The position numbers were made by a program, and so were the translations under genes. From Sulfurimonas sp. (GTDB lineage: Bacteria > Campylobacterota > Campylobacteria > Campylobacterales > Sulfurimonadaceae): a DNA stretch of 64,000 nucleotides. The stretch is from contig NZ_JAHYJB010000005.1 in NCBI RefSeq assembly GCF_019429335.1, forward strand, positions 1-64,000, read 5' to 3'. Shown here in pieces: positions 1,719 through 30,635 of this stretch. Position 1 is the stretch's first letter, and every line of letters begins with the position of its first letter. The notes below the pieces were generated by a model. It worked only from the letters and a program-made list of their open reading frames with translations. It was not told where the DNA came from and did not search any database.

Positions 1719-2680
1719 TGAAAACGCTACTTTTAGTTCTTTTGAGTTTTGCTTTTGTGGAGGCAAAAACGTTTGAACAAGCCTTTAGTATCCAAACTAT
1801 TAAACCAAAGATGCAGATGAAAAAAATTACCAAAAGTTACTATGCGACAACCTCCTATGATGAAAAAAAGATTTATGAGGTTGTGTTGCGTTTTGATGGC
1901 AATGTCGAAAACTTGGAAGCAAACGAGCTTTACAAGAGCGTTAAAAAAGGAGAGAGACTTTTTGATATCTACTCCAAAGAGATATATACGCTTAAAAAAG
2001 AGCTTGAGTCTACAAAAAATCTTCAAACTCTTAATGCAACTATTTTGGAGAAGCTGCATCTCTATGAACTGGGAGAGAAGGCAATCGACTCTAAAGCTGC
2101 GGCAGTTCCCCACTTCAGTAAATACAGCGGTAAAATCATTCAAAAAAATATTTATGAAGGCTCTTATGCCAAAGCGGGCGGAGTGCTTTTAAAGATAGCA
2201 GACGACTCTTCCATGTGGGTAATCGCTAAAGTCTATCAAAAAGATATAGAGTTTATGAGCGAGGGGATGCGCGCAGTTGTGGACGTAGAGGGCTTAAGTG
2301 AGCCGATAGTCGCAAAGGTGGGCAAGATTTATCCAAAAATAAACAAAGAAGATTTGACTTTTGATGTCAGGATGGATGTCAAAAACCCAAACTCTAAAAT
2401 ATTTCCCGACATGTTTGCAAAAGTGAGTTTTAGCAAAAATCTCAGCGCAGCACTCACGCTTCCAAAAGATGCGGTTATAAAAAGAGGAGATAAGTTCTAT
2501 GTCTTTACTAAAATCTCACAGAGCGAATATGAACCAAAAGAGATAGAGGCGGAGTATATCGGCGGATACTATCGCATACTCTCTAGTCTAGATGAGAATA
2601 GCGAAGTAGCACAAAACGCACTCTTTTTGCTTGATAGCGATGCGGTGACAAACGGCTCATACATGAGCGAAGAGTGGTAG
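1718..2680 (+). CDS. RND efflux periplasmic adaptor subunit (CusB-like)
   Basis: A 320-residue membrane-fusion protein with a signal peptide (about 1-16). The order of parts is that of CusB-type adaptors: N-terminal beta segment, a short helical hairpin (about 85-120, rich in K, E and L), a lipoyl-like half with KYSGKI and the YAKAGGVLLKIADDSSMWVIAKVYQ stretch typical of HlyD-family proteins (described here by its start and end), then a barrel and membrane-proximal part ending near LPKDAVIKRGDKFYVF. The hairpin is short, as in heavy-metal adaptors. It connects the TolC-like duct to the CusA-like pump encoded four bases downstream. Confidence 0.83.
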   Translation: MKTLLLVLLSFAFVEAKTFEQAFSIQTIKPKMQMKKITKSYYATTSYDEKKIYEVVLRFDGNVENLEANELYKSVKKGERLFDIYSKEIYTLKKELESTKNLQTLNATILEKLHLYELGEKAIDSKAAAVPHFSKYSGKIIQKNIYEGSYAKAGGVLLKIADDSSMWVIAKVYQKDIEFMSEGMRAVVDVEGLSEPIVAKVGKIYPKINKEDLTFDVRMDVKNPNSKIFPDMFAKVSFSKNLSAALTLPKDAVIKRGDKFYVFTKISQSEYEPKEIEAEYIGGYYRILSSLDENSEVAQNALFLLDSDAVTNGSYMSEEW

Positions 2681-2684
2681 TAAG

Positions 2685-5600
2685 ATGATTGAGAGAATCA
2701 TAAGCTTAAGTGCGAAAAATATATTTTTGGTTCTTATCGTCTCGGTAATTTTAACTGCTTTGAGTCTTTTTAGTCTTAAAAATATCTCGCTTGACGCGCT
2801 GCCTGATCTCTCGCCGCCTCAGGTGATTCTTCAGATCTCATATCCGGGGCAGTCTCCAAAGATCATAGAGGAGCAGGTTTCATACCCGCTTATTAGCTCT
2901 TTAATGGCGCTTCCGGGCATAGATACCGTAAGAGCCATGAGCAGTTTTGAAAACGGGCTTGTCTACATAATTTTTAAAGATGATACGGATATATACGATG
3001 CCAGAAGCAGGATCTTAGAGCAGCTCTCTTCCATCCTGCCGACTCTGCCCTCAAATGCAAAAGTGAGCATGGGACCCGATGCAACAGGTGTAGGCTGGGC
3101 GTATCAATATATTTTAAAATCAGACAAACTCAATCTTGCCGAGTTGAGAGATTATCAGGATTACTATCTAAAATACGGTCTTTTGGGCGTCGATGGCGTG
3201 AGTGAGGTGGCGGCTGTAGGCGGATTTGTAAAGAACTATCAACTCCTTATCGATCAGGATAAGATGGTCAAATACAATGTCGGAATCGGCGAAATAACAG
3301 CTGCTCTTAAGAAGAACAATCAAGACAGAGGCGGCGGCGTGCTTTTGCAAAACGGATATGAAAATATCATTCAAGCACGCGGATATGCCACAAGTGTGGA
3401 GGATATAGAAAATATAACCATCAAAGTAAACGGAGTAGTTCCCCTCAAACTCAGCGATATAGGCACTCTCTCTTTATCTCCTACGCCAAGACGCGGAGTT
3501 GCGGAGTTTAACGGAGAGGGAGAGGTCGTCGGCGGTGTTGTTTTGGTGCGTTACAAAGAGAATACTTACGAGGTATTGCAGAAGATTAAAGCCAAAATCG
3601 ACTCCCTAAAGAGCGAAGACGTAGAGATAGTTACGGCGTATGACAGAACAAAACTTATAGACAGAGCCATAGATACTCTAAAAAGTACGCTGATTGAAGA
3701 GTCTATTATCGTTATTATCATCACGGCTCTGTTTCTATTTCATTTTAGAAGCGCACTTGTCGTCGTGATAGTGCTTCCTTTGACGGTACTGCTTAGTTTT
3801 TGGCTGATGACGCTCTTTGATATAGGCTCAAATATTATGAGTTTGGGAGGCATCGCCATTGCGATAGGTGCTATGGTGGACGCTTCTATCGTCATGATAG
3901 AGAACGCGCATAAACACCTTGCTAAAAGCGACGGCTCAAAAAGCAGAGTAGAGATTATCATCGACTCTTCAAAGCAGGTGGGGCGTCCTATTTTCTTTGC
4001 TCTTATGCTTATAGTTGTCTCCTTTTTGCCTATTTTTGCACTGGAGGGACAGGAAGCCAGACTCTTTTCGCCGCTTGCCTATACAAAAACGTTTGCAATG
4101 CTTATTGGTGCGCTTCTCTCCATCACATTAGTACCTGTTTTGATGATACTTTTTATAAAAGGAGAGATAAAAAAAGAAGAAAGCAACCCCATAAACCGCT
4201 TTTTTACATTTTTATACACTCCCGTGCTGAAACTGTTTTTAAAATTAAAGTATCTCATTATCATTTTGTCTTTAGCCGCCATGGCGTACATCTATCCCCT
4301 TTACAACAGCCAAAAATGGGAGTTTATGCCGCAGCTTAACGAGCAGGATTTTATGTATATGCCCGTTACGCCCTACGGAATCAGCATTGAGTTAGCATAT
4401 GAGCTCTCTCATGAGACAAACAAGATTATAAAAAGCTTTCCCGAAGTAGATACCGTTTTTGCAAAAGCCGGACGTGCAAATACGGCGACAGACCCCGCAC
4501 CTCTTGCCATGATAGAGACCATTATCACATTTAAGGATGAATCTCTTTGGAGAGAGGGCATGACGTATGAGAGACTTATGGCAGAGATGGAAAATGCGCT
4601 TAAAATAAAAGGACTCATAAACTCATGGACATATCCGATACGAGGCAGAATAGATATGCTTTTAACGGGTATCCGCACGCCTTTGGGGATTAAACTTTAC
4701 GGTGACGATAACAAGGTTTTGGAAGATGTTGCATCCAAAATAGAACAGAGACTAAAGACAACACCTCTTACGCTCAGTGTCTCTGCCGACAAATCAAACA
4801 GCGGCTACTATCTCGATATAGAGATAAAACAAGATGCTCTCTCAAGATACTCTGTCTCAAAACAGGAGATACTCGACACCGTCTCGTTTGGTGTAGGCGG
4901 ACTGGGTGTTAGCACTTTCATAGACGGACTTAAGCGTCACCCGATTTCTGTGAGAGTGGATGCTGACCAAAGAGATGATATAGATAAAATCAAAGAGTTA
5001 AAAGTCAAAACAAAATCCGGTTTTTTGCCGCTTCGTCTGTTTGCAGATATAAAATATACGGAGGGTGCGAGTGTTATAAAGAGCGAAAAGGGGATGAAAG
5101 TCTCTTTTGTCTACATCACGCCCAAAAGCGGCGTGAGCATGGATGAGTATAAAAGAGAGGCGACTGCTCTTCTTGAGAAGATAGAACTTCCAAAGGGTTA
5201 CTACTATGAGTTTGCGGGACAGAGCGAGTATCTGGAATCTGCAAAAAAGAGACTCGGCTTTATTGTTCCTATAGTGATTATAAGCATTTTTGTACTTATC
5301 TATTTCGCACTCGGAGATGTTAAAAATTCGCTTATCGTATTTTTGACTCTGCCTTTTGCCGTTTTGGGAGGATTGCTCTATATTGACTTTCTAGGGTTTA
5401 ATATGTCCGTCGCTGTAATTGCAGGCTTTTTGGCACTGCTGGGCATTGCGGCTGAGACGGCTATAGTCATGGTCATTTATCTTGATGAAGCTCTGAGAGA
5501 GAAGGGCATATCACATGAAGAGGCTATTATCAGAGGTGCGGCAGGACGCTTAAGACCAAAACTGATGACCGTTTTTGCCACTTTTGGAGGACTTGTTCCG

Positions 5601-25253: not shown

Positions 25254-26310
25254 TCACAAATATTTTTTAATTGTATCTTGTGCAAAACTTCTAAAAGGAT
25301 AAGCATCGATATAATAAAATAGGCACTTATTCAATCTAGTCTCGTAGTTCTCTTTATAGGAATTTTTTGCTTTGTTGCTCATGTAAGACCTGTCTATTAA
25401 GTCATGTACTTGTTTCTGACTCATAAGAATATCTTTGTATATTTTCTCTAATCTTCTTGGTTTTATCCCAATCATTTTAGCAAAGAGTTCAAAATCTTCT
25501 AATGTATAATAACCCATTGCCCCAAAAGCCTTTGTTCATGCTCTTTAAATAGCTCAAGTCCCATAGTAGCGTCTTCTTTTGGTAAATGATATTTTGTGTA
25601 GAGAATATCATAGTTTGGAGAGAGTGAATAATCAGCTCTGTCTACATCTCGAATTATTGAAAAGTTTTTCAAATGAGCATCTGCATTTCCAACAAGATAG
25701 TTAAGTACAACTCTTTTATAAAAGTCTTCAAGTGCGGGGATATAAGCAGCTATAACCTCTTTGATTTTTAATGCACACTCTTCATAGCTAGATTCATATT
25801 TATACGCTTTTGAATGATTTTCCGAGGTATATTCAAGTACAGATGCAAAATCTTCCTGATCTACCTTTACAATTTTTTTTCTGAACCATTAAGAGAGTAA
25901 TCAAACCTTTTAGTTATATACGCAAGTTCTCCATCACTAAGTTCAATAAGAGCGTTATGCGCTGTTTTTATTTTAAATATCTGAGATGATATCTGCATAC
26001 TTAGATGTTCGTTTTGTACAATGTCTTCTAAGTTTACTGTATTGTCATGATCTCTTGGTATAGGCTTTAAGATATACATTCCATCCTTATTTGTAGGCAC
26101 AAGTTCGTTACTGTCGTTTAATTTTAGTGATATTTTGTCTTGTACACCGGAGATAGACATTTTTTCAGACATTTCACCTCTGATTCTATAAAATTCCGTT
26201 TTGTCAAAGTTTAAAGGTTTCACACTCTTGCCATCAAAAAGGTTACTTTTGCATTTTGGGCAATAATACAAGCCTTTATCTATATCTTTTAAACAGCCGT
26301 AACATCTCAT
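25254..26310 (-). pseudogene. hipT: HipT/HipA-family kinase toxin, interrupted by two single-base changes
   Basis: Read continuously this is a HipA-type Ser/Thr kinase. It has an N-terminal zinc-ribbon-like part (CYGC..CPKC), the ATP-loop region SGVQDKISLKL, AYITKRFDY, the catalytic block NADAHLKNF and the DILYT metal-binding stretch. The frame breaks twice: after NGSEKK, at an A8 run (25873-25880 on the plus strand), and near 25534-25537, where one extra A would give HETKAFGAMGYY. Restoring one base at each gives exactly 353 codons, so two one-base losses explain it. Without them only a 147-residue N-terminal piece and an 87-residue C-terminal piece are readable. The kinase core without the N-subdomain-1 matches HipT of three-gene HipBST systems. 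Confidence 0.75.
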
Positions 26311-26632
26311 TTATGCCTCCTCAACGGTAATTGCACCGATTGTATTCTCTTGTGTCGTCTTCAATAGTCTTGTAAAATTATCATCCTCATCAATCTTTAA
26401 TTCCCGACACTGCATTGATTTTAGATTTCCTTCTGAAAGCAGATTAAAGAAGAATGGAAATAGTATTTTAGATACAAACGGCTCTTTTTTTTAAGGGCAA
26501 ATTTACTGAGATTGCACTTGGATTTTCAGACTGAAGATAATCTTCATAATAAAAAAATCCATATACTCCTCTATCATTTTTACTTAGCTCGCCAATAGGA
26601 ACTTTATTTTTATACACTATACCTTTTTGCAT
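26311..26632 (-). pseudogene. hipS: HipS-like (HipA N-subdomain-1) protein, one frameshift
   Basis: Starts ATG at 26632, five bases after the hipB stop, and ends TAA immediately before the hipT ATG. The first part (MQKGIVYKNKVPIGELSKND, about 50 residues to LPLKK) and the last part (EPFVSKILFPFFFNLL onward, then NTIGAITVEEA) are in different frames, meeting at an A8 run (26485-26492 on the plus strand). Removing one A gives 106 residues plus stop. This is the small domain fused to the kinase in HipA but separate as HipS in HipBST, where HipS is reported as the antitoxin. As written, a 54-residue truncated product is expected. Confidence 0.7.
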
Positions 26633-26637
26633 CTATA

Positions 26638-26850
26638 CTACCCTTTTATTTTGACTTTTACTACTAACTCTAAACCCAAAACTTCAAGAATTTTCTCTAG
26701 TTTATCTATGGAAATATTGGCTTTACCTTGCTCAAGATTAGATAGAGCCGTTGAGCCAATCTCGGCATAGTCTTGAAGGTCAGCTTGAGCAATTTTTAAC
26801 TCTTTTCTTCTGCTTTTGATTGCTGAGCCGATTAAAGATTTTAAATTCAT
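26638..26850 (-). CDS. hipB: HipB-type helix-turn-helix regulator
   Basis: A 70-residue XRE-family protein: IGSAIKSRRKELKIAQADLQDYAEIGSTALSNLEQGKANISIDKL is a complete HTH domain (described by its ends: residues 7-50), followed by the short HipB tail LEVLGLELVVKVKI that forms the dimer beta strand. It is first in the hipB-hipS-hipT order, intact, with GAGGAAAT before ATG. It probably represses the locus by binding the palindrome at 26871-26890. Confidence 0.88.
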   Translation of the reverse strand: MNLKSLIGSAIKSRRKELKIAQADLQDYAEIGSTALSNLEQGKANISIDKLEKILEVLGLELVVKVKIKG

Positions 26851-26870
26851 TGAAATTTCCTCAAAAAAAT

Positions 26871-26890
26871 ATTTACATTATATAGTAAAT
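26871..26890 (-). promoter_or_regulatory. Candidate HipB operator overlapping the -10 box
   Basis: Inverted repeat ATTTAC (26871-26876) and GTAAAT (26885-26890) spaced by eight bases. Read on the minus strand, the spacer contains TATAAT, so a repressor bound here would block the hip promoter. It is 20 bases before the hipB ATG. Confidence 0.6.
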
Positions 26891-26908
26891 TATATGAATA
26901 TTATGCAA

Positions 26909-26956
26909 ATTATTTTATTATTTTATTATTTTATTATTTTATTATTTTATTATTTT
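26909..26956. repeat. Six perfect tandem copies of an 8-bp unit (ATTATTTT)
   Basis: Six head-to-tail copies, then a partial ATTA, lie 19 bases upstream of the candidate hip operator and -10 box. Changes in copy number would alter the upstream promoter spacing in 8-bp steps. It is not a CRISPR array: there are no spacers. This is the main structure in the 412-base gap 26851-27262. Confidence 0.9.
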
Positions 26957-27152
26957 ATTACAATATATCGTAAATACAAGATTATAAATACAAATATTTG
27001 TTTAAAGTATGCTTAGTGCAATATAACTTAAATTATAACTTTAAATTACAGCACTGCAAATTAACCATGAGTTTTTTGAAATAGTAAACCAAGATGAACC
27101 TCATTAGTTCTTAGAAATGACATTAAAAATTTCCTTTTCTTTCATTATACAC

Positions 27153-27181
27153 TTGATTCATCTCTCTTTTTTGCATATACT
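27153..27181 (+). promoter_or_regulatory. Promoter of the peroxidase-cytochrome operon
   Basis: TTGATT (27153-27158) and TATACT (27176-27181) are separated by exactly 17 bases, an unusually complete -35/-10 pair for this genome. It lies 81 bases upstream of the peroxidase ATG. Confidence 0.6.
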
Positions 27182-27204
27182 TAAGGCAAAAAAGGGGATT
27201 TGAC

Positions 27205-27246
27205 ATGTTAAAAATACTTTTTAGAACTTATGCGCCTCTTGTTTGA
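27205..27246 (+). CDS. Possible 13-residue leader peptide before the peroxidase gene
   Basis: ATG at 27205 opens MLKILFRTYAPLV then TGA. It is preceded by AAGGGGA at good spacing and lies inside the 5' leader of the peroxidase transcript. No attenuator structure is obvious, so a regulatory role is only a suggestion. Confidence 0.3.
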   Translation: MLKILFRTYAPLV

Positions 27247-27262
27247 GCAAGGACGCAGCTAG

Positions 27263-28453
27263 ATGAAAAAGCTCCTATTTTACTCCATTATAATCGCTTT
27301 TGTAGCAGTTGCCTCTATGATAATTGTATCAGCCGTCGTGCCGCCAAAAGATATCCCGATATACAGTGACGATGAATTAAGAGAGATGGCAATAGGCAAA
27401 GGACACGGCTCCTTTCCATCTACGTTTGATGGACTTTTAGAGCTTGTGGACGATGCTTCCAACCCAATGACTGTAGAAAAAATCGCTTTGGGTGAAGAGC
27501 TTTTTTTTGACACTAATCTCTCAAAAAGTAAAAAAATAAGCTGTGCAACATGTCACTCGTTTGACAGAGAGCTTAAAAACAGCGGCGCTTTGGTAAAAAT
27601 GCTCACAAAACAGAGTGATAATATTACGGATTGTGCGGCTTGTCATCTGCAAGACCAAAGCGGAGTTGATAGATTTACTTTTGCTCAGGGTGATGCGGGC
27701 GCGATGCATCCATATCTTTTAAATACGCAGTCTGTTTTGAATGTAGGATTTGCCAAGTATTACACGTGGAGCGGCGAGGTCGGCAGTATTAAGGAGCAGA
27801 GCGAAAATTCCTTTTTAGCTTCTCATAAGATGAATATGACACCGGAAGAGCTTGAGTCAAGAGTAAATGAGAGCGCAAAGTATAAAGAGATGTTTGCCGA
27901 GGTATTTGATGGTGGCATATCGCTTGAGAATGCTGCTAAAGCGATAGAGGTATATGTCAAGACATTGGTGACTAGAGCGCCTTATGACAGTTTTTTAGAG
28001 GGTGATAACTCTGCAATAAGTGATGAAGCAAAAAGGGGTCTGGCAAATTTTATAAGTTTTGGATGCAAGGGGTGTCACAACGGCATAACCTTTGGCGGTC
28101 ATACGATTCAGCGCTTTCCGCTTAGAGAGTTTGCACAGCTTTACGACATAGAACCAAATTTCGAGGTAGTTCCTCAAATAAAGAGATTTGACAGAGAGTT
28201 CCCTTTTGAAAACAGCGGCGGCTTTTTAGGAAAAGACAAAGAGCATCTCTTTAGGGTTCCAATCCTCAGAAACGTAACGAAGACATCACCCTATTTTCAT
28301 AACGGAGCAGTCGCAAAGATAAGAGAAGCTGTAAACATTATGGCAAAACATCAGCTTGGGCGCAACCTGACTACGGTTCAGATAGATGAGATAGTGGCAT
28401 TTTTAAGAACGTTAGAGGGTGAGATAGTAGATTATAAAAAGGAACAAAGATGA
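27263..28453 (+). CDS. MauG/cytochrome-c-peroxidase-family protein with three haem motifs
   Basis: A 396-residue periplasmic protein, anchored or exported by an N-terminal hydrophobic helix (about 5-24). It carries CXXCH haem sites at residues 94 (CATCH), 124 (CAACH) and 268 (CKGCH). The usual MauG/CcpA plan has two; the extra site lies just after the first. The region EHLFRVPILRNVTKTSPYFHNGAVAKIREAV is typical of the family (near 330-360). It likely reduces peroxide with electrons from the quinol or cytochrome pool, but MauG relatives have other oxidative roles. It heads a three-gene operon with 4-nt overlaps. Confidence 0.88.
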   Translation: MKKLLFYSIIIAFVAVASMIIVSAVVPPKDIPIYSDDELREMAIGKGHGSFPSTFDGLLELVDDASNPMTVEKIALGEELFFDTNLSKSKKISCATCHSFDRELKNSGALVKMLTKQSDNITDCAACHLQDQSGVDRFTFAQGDAGAMHPYLLNTQSVLNVGFAKYYTWSGEVGSIKEQSENSFLASHKMNMTPEELESRVNESAKYKEMFAEVFDGGISLENAAKAIEVYVKTLVTRAPYDSFLEGDNSAISDEAKRGLANFISFGCKGCHNGITFGGHTIQRFPLREFAQLYDIEPNFEVVPQIKRFDREFPFENSGGFLGKDKEHLFRVPILRNVTKTSPYFHNGAVAKIREAVNIMAKHQLGRNLTTVQIDEIVAFLRTLEGEIVDYKKEQR

Positions 28454-30258
28454 GAAGAGTCTTTGTAAAAATTGCTCTGTTTGCAATGTTTTTATCCGGT
28501 ATCTTTATGTATGAGCCTCTTAGACTTTCTTGGGAGAACTTTAGGGTTGTTCAGCCTCTTCATGTAGTGGGCTCAATCTTGATAACGCTCTTTTTTATGA
28601 ACTCTTTTGTTTATCGTCATATACGCAGATATTTCTTTATAAAAAAGATAAACAGTGTAGAGGGGTGGCTTTTGCTTTTATCTTTTATTTTGGTTATTCT
28701 TAGCGGTGTGTATCTCTTTTTGGTAGGCAACCGTGGCGGAGATATGCTTGGAATAATCTCTTTTAATATTCATCTTTTTGGCTCGTTTGTTTTAATAGCT
28801 CTTTTTTTATGGCATGTAGTTATGGCAAAGAGGCAAAATATGCAGCCGCTGGCTCTGTTCGTTGTTATTTTATTCTCATATCCGTCCGTTTCATACAGCA
28901 AAATTACTGACCTCTCGCTTCTGGAGATAGAGAAAAAAACAGCTGTTTATCACAGCGAGGATTGGACCTCTTCTGCAAAATGCAAATCTTGCCATAACGA
29001 GATTTTTGAGCAGTGGAGCAACTCAAACCATAAACATATGGCTGGCTCAAATCCATACTATATGGTTATGGAGACGCTTGCGGGAGAGGTTGAAGGGCAG
29101 GAGTTTCGCAAATGGTGTATGAGTTGTCATAATCCAAGTGCCCTATCTTTAGGTCACCCAAAAACAACGCATGCAATGGATGGCAACTTGGTAAGTAACG
29201 AGCACTTTGAGGGCGGCGCAAAAACACTTCTAAATGATTTTAAAGAGCATGGCAATTTTAGAGTTGAAGAGGGTGTTTCGTGTATAACATGCCATCAAAT
29301 AACAGAGGCAAAGAGCAAAGGCAATGCTTCGTTTACGCTCTCATTGGAGAGGGAGAAGTATCTGTTTGAAGAGTCTAAATCTGATTTGGGACGCTGGTTC
29401 GGCGAAAAACTTATCAATTCAAATCCTAAAGTGCACAAAGAGAGCTACTCTAAGGAGCTTTATAAAGAGAGCCGTTACTGCGCCTCATGTCATGACGAGT
29501 TCCATCCGCAAAACGGTATAAAAATAGTCTCAACTTACGAGGAGTGGGAGAAGTCGCCGTTTAACAATCCAAAAGATAAAACTAAGCATAAAAGCTGCAT
29601 AGAGTGTCACATGACCTATATGAAAGATGGTAAATTTTCACCGCTGCGCAGCGCTTCAACTGATGGCGGAGTTATAAAAGATGATGTGAAAGTTCACTAT
29701 TTTGCAGGCTCAAACCACTTTTTAGCAGGGCTTAGAGATAAAGAGCATGAAGAGCAGACGCTGCAACTTCTTAGAACTTCGGCAAAACTTGATGTTGATA
29801 TAAAAGAGGGAGTTTTGGAAGTGGGGGTTAAAAATGTAGGTGCAGGGCATCATCTCCCTACCGGTGTGGCTGATTTTAGAGAGCTGTGGCTTGAGGTTGA
29901 GGTCAAAGATAGAGATGGCAGCGTAGTTTTCTCAAGCGGCAAACTAAAAAGTGACGGCAATATAGAGGAGGGTAGCAGACTCTTTCAAAAGGTTTTCGGC
30001 GATGAGAACTCCAAACCCGTCGGGCTTCTTTTTTGGAAGTACAAGAGACTTCTAAGCGACACGAGAATACCGGCAGGAGAGAGAAGAGTCGAGAAGTTTG
30101 AACTCCCAAAAGGCACAAAAAAGTTTCTACATGTAGATGTGAAACTAAACTTTAGAATCTACCCGCAGTGGGTAACGGACGCTGTAAGAAAGGTCTTTCC
30201 GGTTCTTTTAAATCCGAACGTAGTTGAGCTTGCAACTGTGAAGAAAGAGTTTAAGTGA
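28450..30258 (+). CDS. Membrane-anchored five-haem cytochrome c
   Basis: A 602-residue protein. The N-terminal 130 residues hold four hydrophobic helices (about 7-23, 37-55, 72-92 and 104-125) with His residues, resembling a small cytochrome-b-type membrane domain. The rest is periplasmic with CXXCH motifs at residues 178 (CKSCH), 223 (CMSCH), 278 (CITCH), 344 (CASCH) and 383 (CIECH), like the cytochrome c554 type of multihaem proteins, then a C-terminal beta-rich domain with no haem (about 430-600). It probably moves electrons between the quinone pool and periplasmic acceptors, perhaps the peroxidase encoded upstream (overlap ATGA). The partner is inferred. Confidence 0.8.
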   Translation: MRRVFVKIALFAMFLSGIFMYEPLRLSWENFRVVQPLHVVGSILITLFFMNSFVYRHIRRYFFIKKINSVEGWLLLLSFILVILSGVYLFLVGNRGGDMLGIISFNIHLFGSFVLIALFLWHVVMAKRQNMQPLALFVVILFSYPSVSYSKITDLSLLEIEKKTAVYHSEDWTSSAKCKSCHNEIFEQWSNSNHKHMAGSNPYYMVMETLAGEVEGQEFRKWCMSCHNPSALSLGHPKTTHAMDGNLVSNEHFEGGAKTLLNDFKEHGNFRVEEGVSCITCHQITEAKSKGNASFTLSLEREKYLFEESKSDLGRWFGEKLINSNPKVHKESYSKELYKESRYCASCHDEFHPQNGIKIVSTYEEWEKSPFNNPKDKTKHKSCIECHMTYMKDGKFSPLRSASTDGGVIKDDVKVHYFAGSNHFLAGLRDKEHEEQTLQLLRTSAKLDVDIKEGVLEVGVKNVGAGHHLPTGVADFRELWLEVEVKDRDGSVVFSSGKLKSDGNIEEGSRLFQKVFGDENSKPVGLLFWKYKRLLSDTRIPAGERRVEKFELPKGTKKFLHVDVKLNFRIYPQWVTDAVRKVFPVLLNPNVVELATVKKEFK

Positions 30259-30635
30259 AAATATTCTTAGTTTTGTTTCTGATGGCAGGAGCGCTTTTTT
30301 CGGAGCACATAAGATGGAGCAACGATTTCGACAAAGCTTTGTTTAAAGCCAAAGAAGAGAAAAAAGAGATAATGCTTTTAGTCTTAAAAAAAGAGTGCGT
30401 GGAATGTAAAAAAGTTTTTGTTGAAGTTTTTAATGACAAAGAGGTGCAAGAGAAAGTAAACAGAAAATATATTGCCGTTGTTGCTTTTTTTGAGCATGAG
30501 AACAGCTACCCCGTAGAGCTTTTTTATACGCAAAGCTTTCCGACTATATTTTTTGTCTCAAGCAAGGATGAATCTTATCTGCAAAAACCTCTAAGGGGCT
30601 ATTTTAAGAAAGAAGAGCTTTTAAAAAGTCTTTGA
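30255..30635 (+). CDS. Periplasmic thioredoxin-like protein
   Basis: A 126-residue protein with a signal peptide (about 1-16) and a thioredoxin fold. The N-terminal strand-helix carries the redox pair in KKECVECKKVFVEVF (CVEC), and the cis-Pro is in SFPTIFFVS. It starts at GTG overlapping the cytochrome stop (GTGA). Such proteins often keep haem-binding cysteines reduced, so a maturation role for the upstream cytochromes fits. A weak hairpin (TTGATT/AATCAA) follows at about 30632-30656. Confidence 0.75.
   Translation: MKIFLVLFLMAGALFSEHIRWSNDFDKALFKAKEEKKEIMLLVLKKECVECKKVFVEVFNDKEVQEKVNRKYIAVVAFFEHENSYPVELFYTQSFPTIFFVSSKDESYLQKPLRGYFKKEELLKSL

Follow-up and report, generated by a model that had tools for sequence, protein, structure and literature searches.

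A three-haem protein of the cytochrome c peroxidase fold in Sulfurimonas probably belongs to an uncharacterised electron-transfer chain with a membrane pentahaem cytochrome

The peroxidatic (P) haem of bacterial cytochrome c peroxidases (CCPs) is well described. In the CCP of N. gonorrhoeae, the P-haem cavity is formed by Phe97, Gln108, Pro112, Glu118 and Met119 together with the bridging Trp98, and substitutions of the Glu or Gln in a BCCP were reported to abolish activity (PMC10094543). CCP, MauG and BthA share a conserved distal Gln, Pro and Glu, and the E277Q variant of BthA was impaired (PMC6405878). Three-haem quinol peroxidases are also known; these have a separate N-terminal domain that holds the extra haem (PMC10301912). 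Hydrazine synthase has a gamma subunit (HZS-gamma) that is a homologue of CCP/MauG and has been proposed to reduce NO at a P-type haem (PMC12607021), and in HZS beta-gamma homologues a CCP-like part occurs together with haem domains of the c554 type (PMC12758564).

The locus described here lies in a window of 64,000 nucleotides of Sulfurimonas sp. DNA (contig NZ_JAHYJB010000005.1). The three ORFs, their haem motifs and the 4-nt overlaps that join ORF1 to ORF2 and ORF2 to ORF3 were all confirmed exactly as originally predicted (Table 1), and the conserved overlaps suggest that the three genes are co-transcribed. All three are under purifying selection (dN/dS ~0.1). The nearest named loci belong to Sulfurimonas MAGs. 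The same three-gene order, which the original prediction had proposed to look for, recurs in relatives and in many of them is part of a longer unit (SDR, AraC regulator, SDR, CCP, pentahaem cytochrome, thioredoxin-fold protein). The upstream SDR gene of close relatives is missing in the window, and a search upstream of the CCP gene for an SDR remnant found none; in place of the SDR, positions 25867-27262 hold a short ORF that looks HipA-like by eye. Compared with one relative (L006), dS drops sharply along the operon, from 1.49 for the CCP gene to 0.46 for the pentahaem gene and 0.27 for the last gene, which suggests within-operon recombination. In one relative, fragments of a second CCP-pentahaem gene pair are present as well (G111:C16:667-1646).

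Table 1. Features of the three-gene locus, with positions in the window.
Feature	Residues or length	Position	Strand	Basis
ORF1, three-haem CCP_MauG-family protein	396 aa	27263..28453	+	PF03150, Foldseek, hydropathy
P-haem motif CATCH	94-98	27542..27556	+	Aligns with first CxxCH of all CCPs
Segment from P-haem motif to Asp136, holding the insert	99-135 (37 aa)	27557..27667	+	Length comparison
Third haem motif CAACH	124-128	27632..27646	+	Alignment; PF14522
Remodelled P-haem distal pocket	168-190	27764..27832	+	Gap-free alignment to N. gonorrhoeae CCP pocket
E-haem motif CKGCH	268-272	28064..28078	+	Invariant in all aligned CCPs
ORF2, membrane pentahaem cytochrome	602 aa	28450..30258	+	Five CxxCH; PF13435; adjoins three-haem CCP
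Four-helix membrane domain, putative di-haem b, quinone-facing		28450..28824	+	His38, His57, His108, His122
Periplasmic pentahaem domain and C-terminal beta domain	170-602	28957..30255	+	Conserved haem ligands; 5ze8
ORF3, small thioredoxin-fold protein, GTG start	126 aa	30255..30635	+	PF13899

ORF1 scored 132.6 bits against PF03150 (cutoff 25.6), and the best Foldseek match of its AF2 model, which is good enough for fold assignment only, was the N. gonorrhoeae CCP (7zs8, TM 0.74 on the target). Hydropathy predicts an N-terminal membrane anchor at residues 8-26. The P-haem motif is invariant in three-haem (57/57) and nearest two-haem proteins (30/30), and Met360, the candidate sixth ligand of the E haem, and the bridging inter-haem Trp169 are both kept in all 57 three-haem proteins. 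The three-haem proteins have a discrete insert of ~30 residues right behind the P-haem motif, which carries a third CxxCH. The spacing from the P motif to the conserved Asp is 36-42 residues in the 57 three-haem proteins versus 7 in 30/30 of the nearest two-haem relatives, and in ORF1 the third motif begins 26 residues past the end of the P motif. This third CxxCH is invariant in all 57 distinct three-haem proteins and absent from all 30 nearest two-haem relatives, which have a gap at this place. Therefore, the proposed difference from the usual two-haem CCP is real, and a third site missing in all relatives, which would have spoken against it, is not what was found. A seeming loss of the motif in one locus (L187) proved to be a stretch masked by N. 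Conservation in 57/57 proteins together with the dN/dS of ~0.1 argues that the motif is not there by chance. A cytochrome c7 model (PF14522) matched over both the P and the third motif (28.1 bits versus 24.8). The AF2 model of the insert itself is unreliable (pLDDT <50).

The pocket of the P haem has changed as well. At the positions where CCP has Phe, Trp, Gln, Pro, Glu and Met, ORF1 has T168, W169, Q179, S183, K189 and M190. Throughout the three-haem clade the distal Glu position is occupied by Lys (39 proteins), Gln (12), Thr (5) or Ile (1) and never by Glu (0/57), and the distal Pro position by Ser, Met or Thr (Pro 0/57), whereas the nearest two-haem relatives have both Glu and Pro in 30/30. 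The distal Gln is kept in 41/57 three-haem proteins, Gln179 of the window among them, and the position of the canonical P-haem distal His is variable. Since dN/dS is ~0.1 in all genes, the altered pocket does not represent decay. Peroxide had been suggested as the acceptor, but this is unsupported, as the P-haem pocket lacks its catalytic Glu and Pro clade-wide, and the annotation 'cytochrome c peroxidase' is likely wrong in function for the three-haem proteins. Elsewhere, the genome also encodes a separate two-haem CCP whose pocket is intact.

ORF2 contains the haem motifs CKSCH, CMSCH, CITCH, CASCH and CIECH and matched cytochrome c554 (PF13435) with 28.1 bits (cutoff 20.8). In its periplasmic part the haem Cys and His are conserved, as are extra His residues at 168, 194, 329, 416 and 467, and the pentahaem domain distantly matches cytochrome c552 (5ze8, E 1e-6); the predicted structure of the protein has a pLDDT of 40. 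Of the predicted membrane topology the four helices stood, but a fifth hydrophobic, signal-like segment is also present at ~132-150, which leads into the periplasmic pentahaem domain. Two of the four helices carry all four His listed in Table 1, and these are invariant in 48/48 pentahaem proteins and in 5/5 fused paralogues (53/53). His38/His108 and His57/His122 could form two pairs across the two helices, an arrangement that would fit two b-haems. The membrane domain scored below the cutoff of the cytochrome b561 model PF01292 (21.7 bits, cutoff 30.1), and for this reason we call the b-haems putative. Still, the invariant His have the arrangement over two helices that a di-haem b would need and make a quinone-linked module likely, and together with the strict pairing of CCP and pentahaem genes they support the quinone-linked path into the periplasm that was originally envisaged.

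This pairing holds throughout the clade. A complete pentahaem gene lies immediately downstream of 65/67 distinct three-haem CCP genes, and in 56 of these cases the two genes share the 4-nt overlap seen here. The other two loci break off at a contig or locus end, 427 and 224 bases on, and both still show the start of the pentahaem gene. In the 30 two-haem relatives, no pentahaem gene adjoins the CCP gene. Two apparent exceptions (L115, L161) were rejected, as the gene encodes a c554-type protein of 378 aa with 24% identity, without membrane domain and on the opposite strand. In a reverse search with the pentahaem protein, every unfused copy was preceded by a three-haem CCP, barring a contig end or masked stretch. 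About 53 of 135 Sulfurimonas genomes carry the unit, and it also occurs in a second family (f9); relatives beyond Campylobacterota were covered by one pattern-based genome scan and a plasmid collection only. No description of the three-haem family was found in the literature searched, which left out most subscription journals.

Fuller two-haem operons have the gene order SDR, AraC regulator, SDR and CCP, and in 10/30 two-haem loci a thioredoxin-fold gene lies directly behind the CCP gene. From this order, the pentahaem gene appears to have been inserted behind the CCP gene and ahead of the thioredoxin-fold gene. When the insert and pocket columns are left out, the tree groups the three-haem proteins in a single clade (SH-aLRT 97); in a tree that includes these columns the clade falls inside the two-haem group. 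The simplest reading is a single gain of the third haem. Gain of the haem, gain of the partner and loss of the Glu all go back to one origin, and their co-occurrence across many genomes is therefore not statistically independent.

ORF3 matched PF13899 with 42 bits (cutoff 27) and carries CVEC as its CXXC. The CXXC is missing in 14/41 relatives, including one at 77% identity (L005), and the proposed maturation-like role for this protein therefore fails; on the same ground it was not classed with the CXXC thioredoxins that serve cytochrome c maturation (ResA/CcsX type). The protein is probably an accessory handed down from the older two-haem operon.

The pentahaem domain also occurs in proteins of ~1,000-1,130 aa, fused to a YVTN beta-propeller and a single CCP-like haem (L078:4891-8253 (-), L080:4271-7672 (-), L188:5239-8598 (-) and L192:4384-7353 (+)). 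Most of these fusions have the membrane domain; one from Aeromonas does not. Two other loci have a separate gene for a 160-aa membrane His protein just before the propeller-haem-pentahaem protein (L190:1808-2290 and 2284-5202; L191:1742-2221 and 2215-5130), and this stand-alone gene indicates that the membrane domain is a re-used module. An FTR1 iron permease adjoins the fused proteins in several loci, the Aeromonas relative lying beside an FTR1-like gene, and the fused proteins are possibly an iron-linked electron-transfer system. A ~670-aa protein without a Pfam or NCBIfam match is encoded beside the fused cytochromes (L078:8409-10421 (-) and equivalents).

With moderate confidence, we propose that the three genes encode a quinol-linked electron-transfer unit in which the CCP scaffold has been converted away from standard peroxidase chemistry. 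The gained third haem, the lost catalytic acid and the always adjoining membrane cytochrome make it likelier that the three-haem protein belongs to an uncharacterised electron-transfer chain than that it is a peroxidase, and we conclude that it is probably not an ordinary one. The parts of the unit and their strict association can be read from the genomes, and from these we infer the likeliest order of haems, direction of electron flow and acceptor. Menaquinol would be oxidised at the putative di-haem b domain of the pentahaem cytochrome, and electrons would pass from the b-haems over the five c-haems to the inserted haem of the CCP-fold protein. From there they would cross the P and E haems, with Trp169 as bridge and Met360 at the E haem, to a periplasmic acceptor. 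Because the peroxide-cleaving residues are gone, the P haem would probably not be a standard H2O2 reductase; it could act as a relay, for example to a soluble cytochrome c via the E haem, or as a site for another small oxidant. More tentatively, and at rather less than even chance, this would be a new respiratory complex in which a menaquinol-linked b-c5 cytochrome is wired via the inserted haem to the former peroxidatic haem without peroxide chemistry, and which would either be an alternative quinol:cytochrome c oxidoreductase or reduce another oxidant.

A quinol-dependent H2O2 peroxidase like YhjA or QPO, with the extra haem placed elsewhere and Lys or Gln taking over the role of the Glu, would agree with the CCP fold and family, the distal Gln retained in 41/57 proteins and the precedent of three-haem quinol peroxidases (PMC10301912). 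However, Glu and Pro are lost in all 57 proteins, BCCPs altered at the Glu or Gln position were reported inactive (PMC10094543) and the genome already has an ordinary two-haem CCP, which makes this reading quite improbable. The converted P haem could instead reduce another small molecule such as nitric oxide or hydroxylamine. The variable distal His position means that the P-haem site may be open, HZS-gamma offers a CCP/MauG homologue with proposed NO reduction at its P-type haem (PMC12607021), and HZS beta-gamma homologues likewise combine c554-type domains with a CCP-like part (PMC12758564). Still, ORF1 scores far below the HZS-gamma cutoff (NCBIfam NF052341, 24.2 versus 625) and no nitrogen gene goes exclusively with the three-haem loci, and this function seems unlikely.

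Electrons might also flow in reverse, from a periplasmic substrate or protein that is oxidised by the CCP-fold protein, through the pentahaem/b module, to menaquinone. Quinone-reducing enzymes do use di-haem b domains of this general kind, and the FTR1 iron permease beside the fused paralogue makes an oxidising role possible there. Yet Met-ligated CCP E haems are usually high-potential electron acceptors, so that delivery of electrons to menaquinone would be uphill, and we regard reverse flow as improbable. Finally, the inserted CxxCH, the second in the chain, could be a structural or metal-binding motif rather than a haem site. The 57-protein alignment revealed no conserved sixth ligand for a third haem in or near the insert, as such a motif would predict. 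Against this, the full CxxCH is invariant while its inner residues vary, the protein is exported, and the c7-type model covers both motifs above its cutoff; a non-haem motif is therefore very unlikely. In the favoured electron-transfer unit, one protein lineage has gained both a haem and a dedicated membrane partner and has lost a catalytic acid. As these three changes are linked in one lineage, the role of an extra haem in CCP-type proteins becomes directly testable, and the locus suggests that common sulfur-oxidising bacteria have an electron-transfer route not yet described.

Compared with known systems, ORF1 shares its fold, P- and E-haem motifs, bridging Trp and E-haem Met with the classical di-haem CCPs (PF03150), but differs from them in the extra haem after the P haem, the missing distal Glu and Pro and the obligate pentahaem partner. 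It does not classify as a classical CCP, which has exactly two haems and a distal Gln-Pro-Glu set, since the clade has three CxxCH (57/57) and keeps the Gln without Pro or Glu (both 0/57). With YhjA, PerC and QPO it has in common three c-haems, a membrane anchor (predicted here) and a proposed quinol link. In those enzymes quinol is proposed to act directly, whereas here the quinone module is a separate cytochrome. The placement of the third haem also differs, since the known three-haem peroxidases use a separate N-terminal domain and in ORF1 it lies inside the P domain, so that a YhjA/QPO-type peroxidase was rejected. MauG, MbnH and BthA belong to the same CCP_MauG superfamily, but MauG and BthA keep the distal Gln, Pro and Glu and the three-haem clade does not. 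ORF1 reached 118.7 bits against the MauG equivalog of NCBIfam (cutoff 443.85), with Met in 57/57 proteins where MauG has its Tyr ligand, and 150.3 against MbnH (TIGR04039, cutoff 362.85), and was assigned to neither. HZS-gamma, to which ORF1 was not assigned either, and its homologues use the CCP fold in other chemistry, some of them with c554-type domains, and their partners differ from those of ORF1. Lastly, ORF2 shares the pentahaem domain and a GHxxPTG-type beta domain with c554, c552 (5ze8) and ExtKL, and adds to these a preceding membrane domain with four invariant His.
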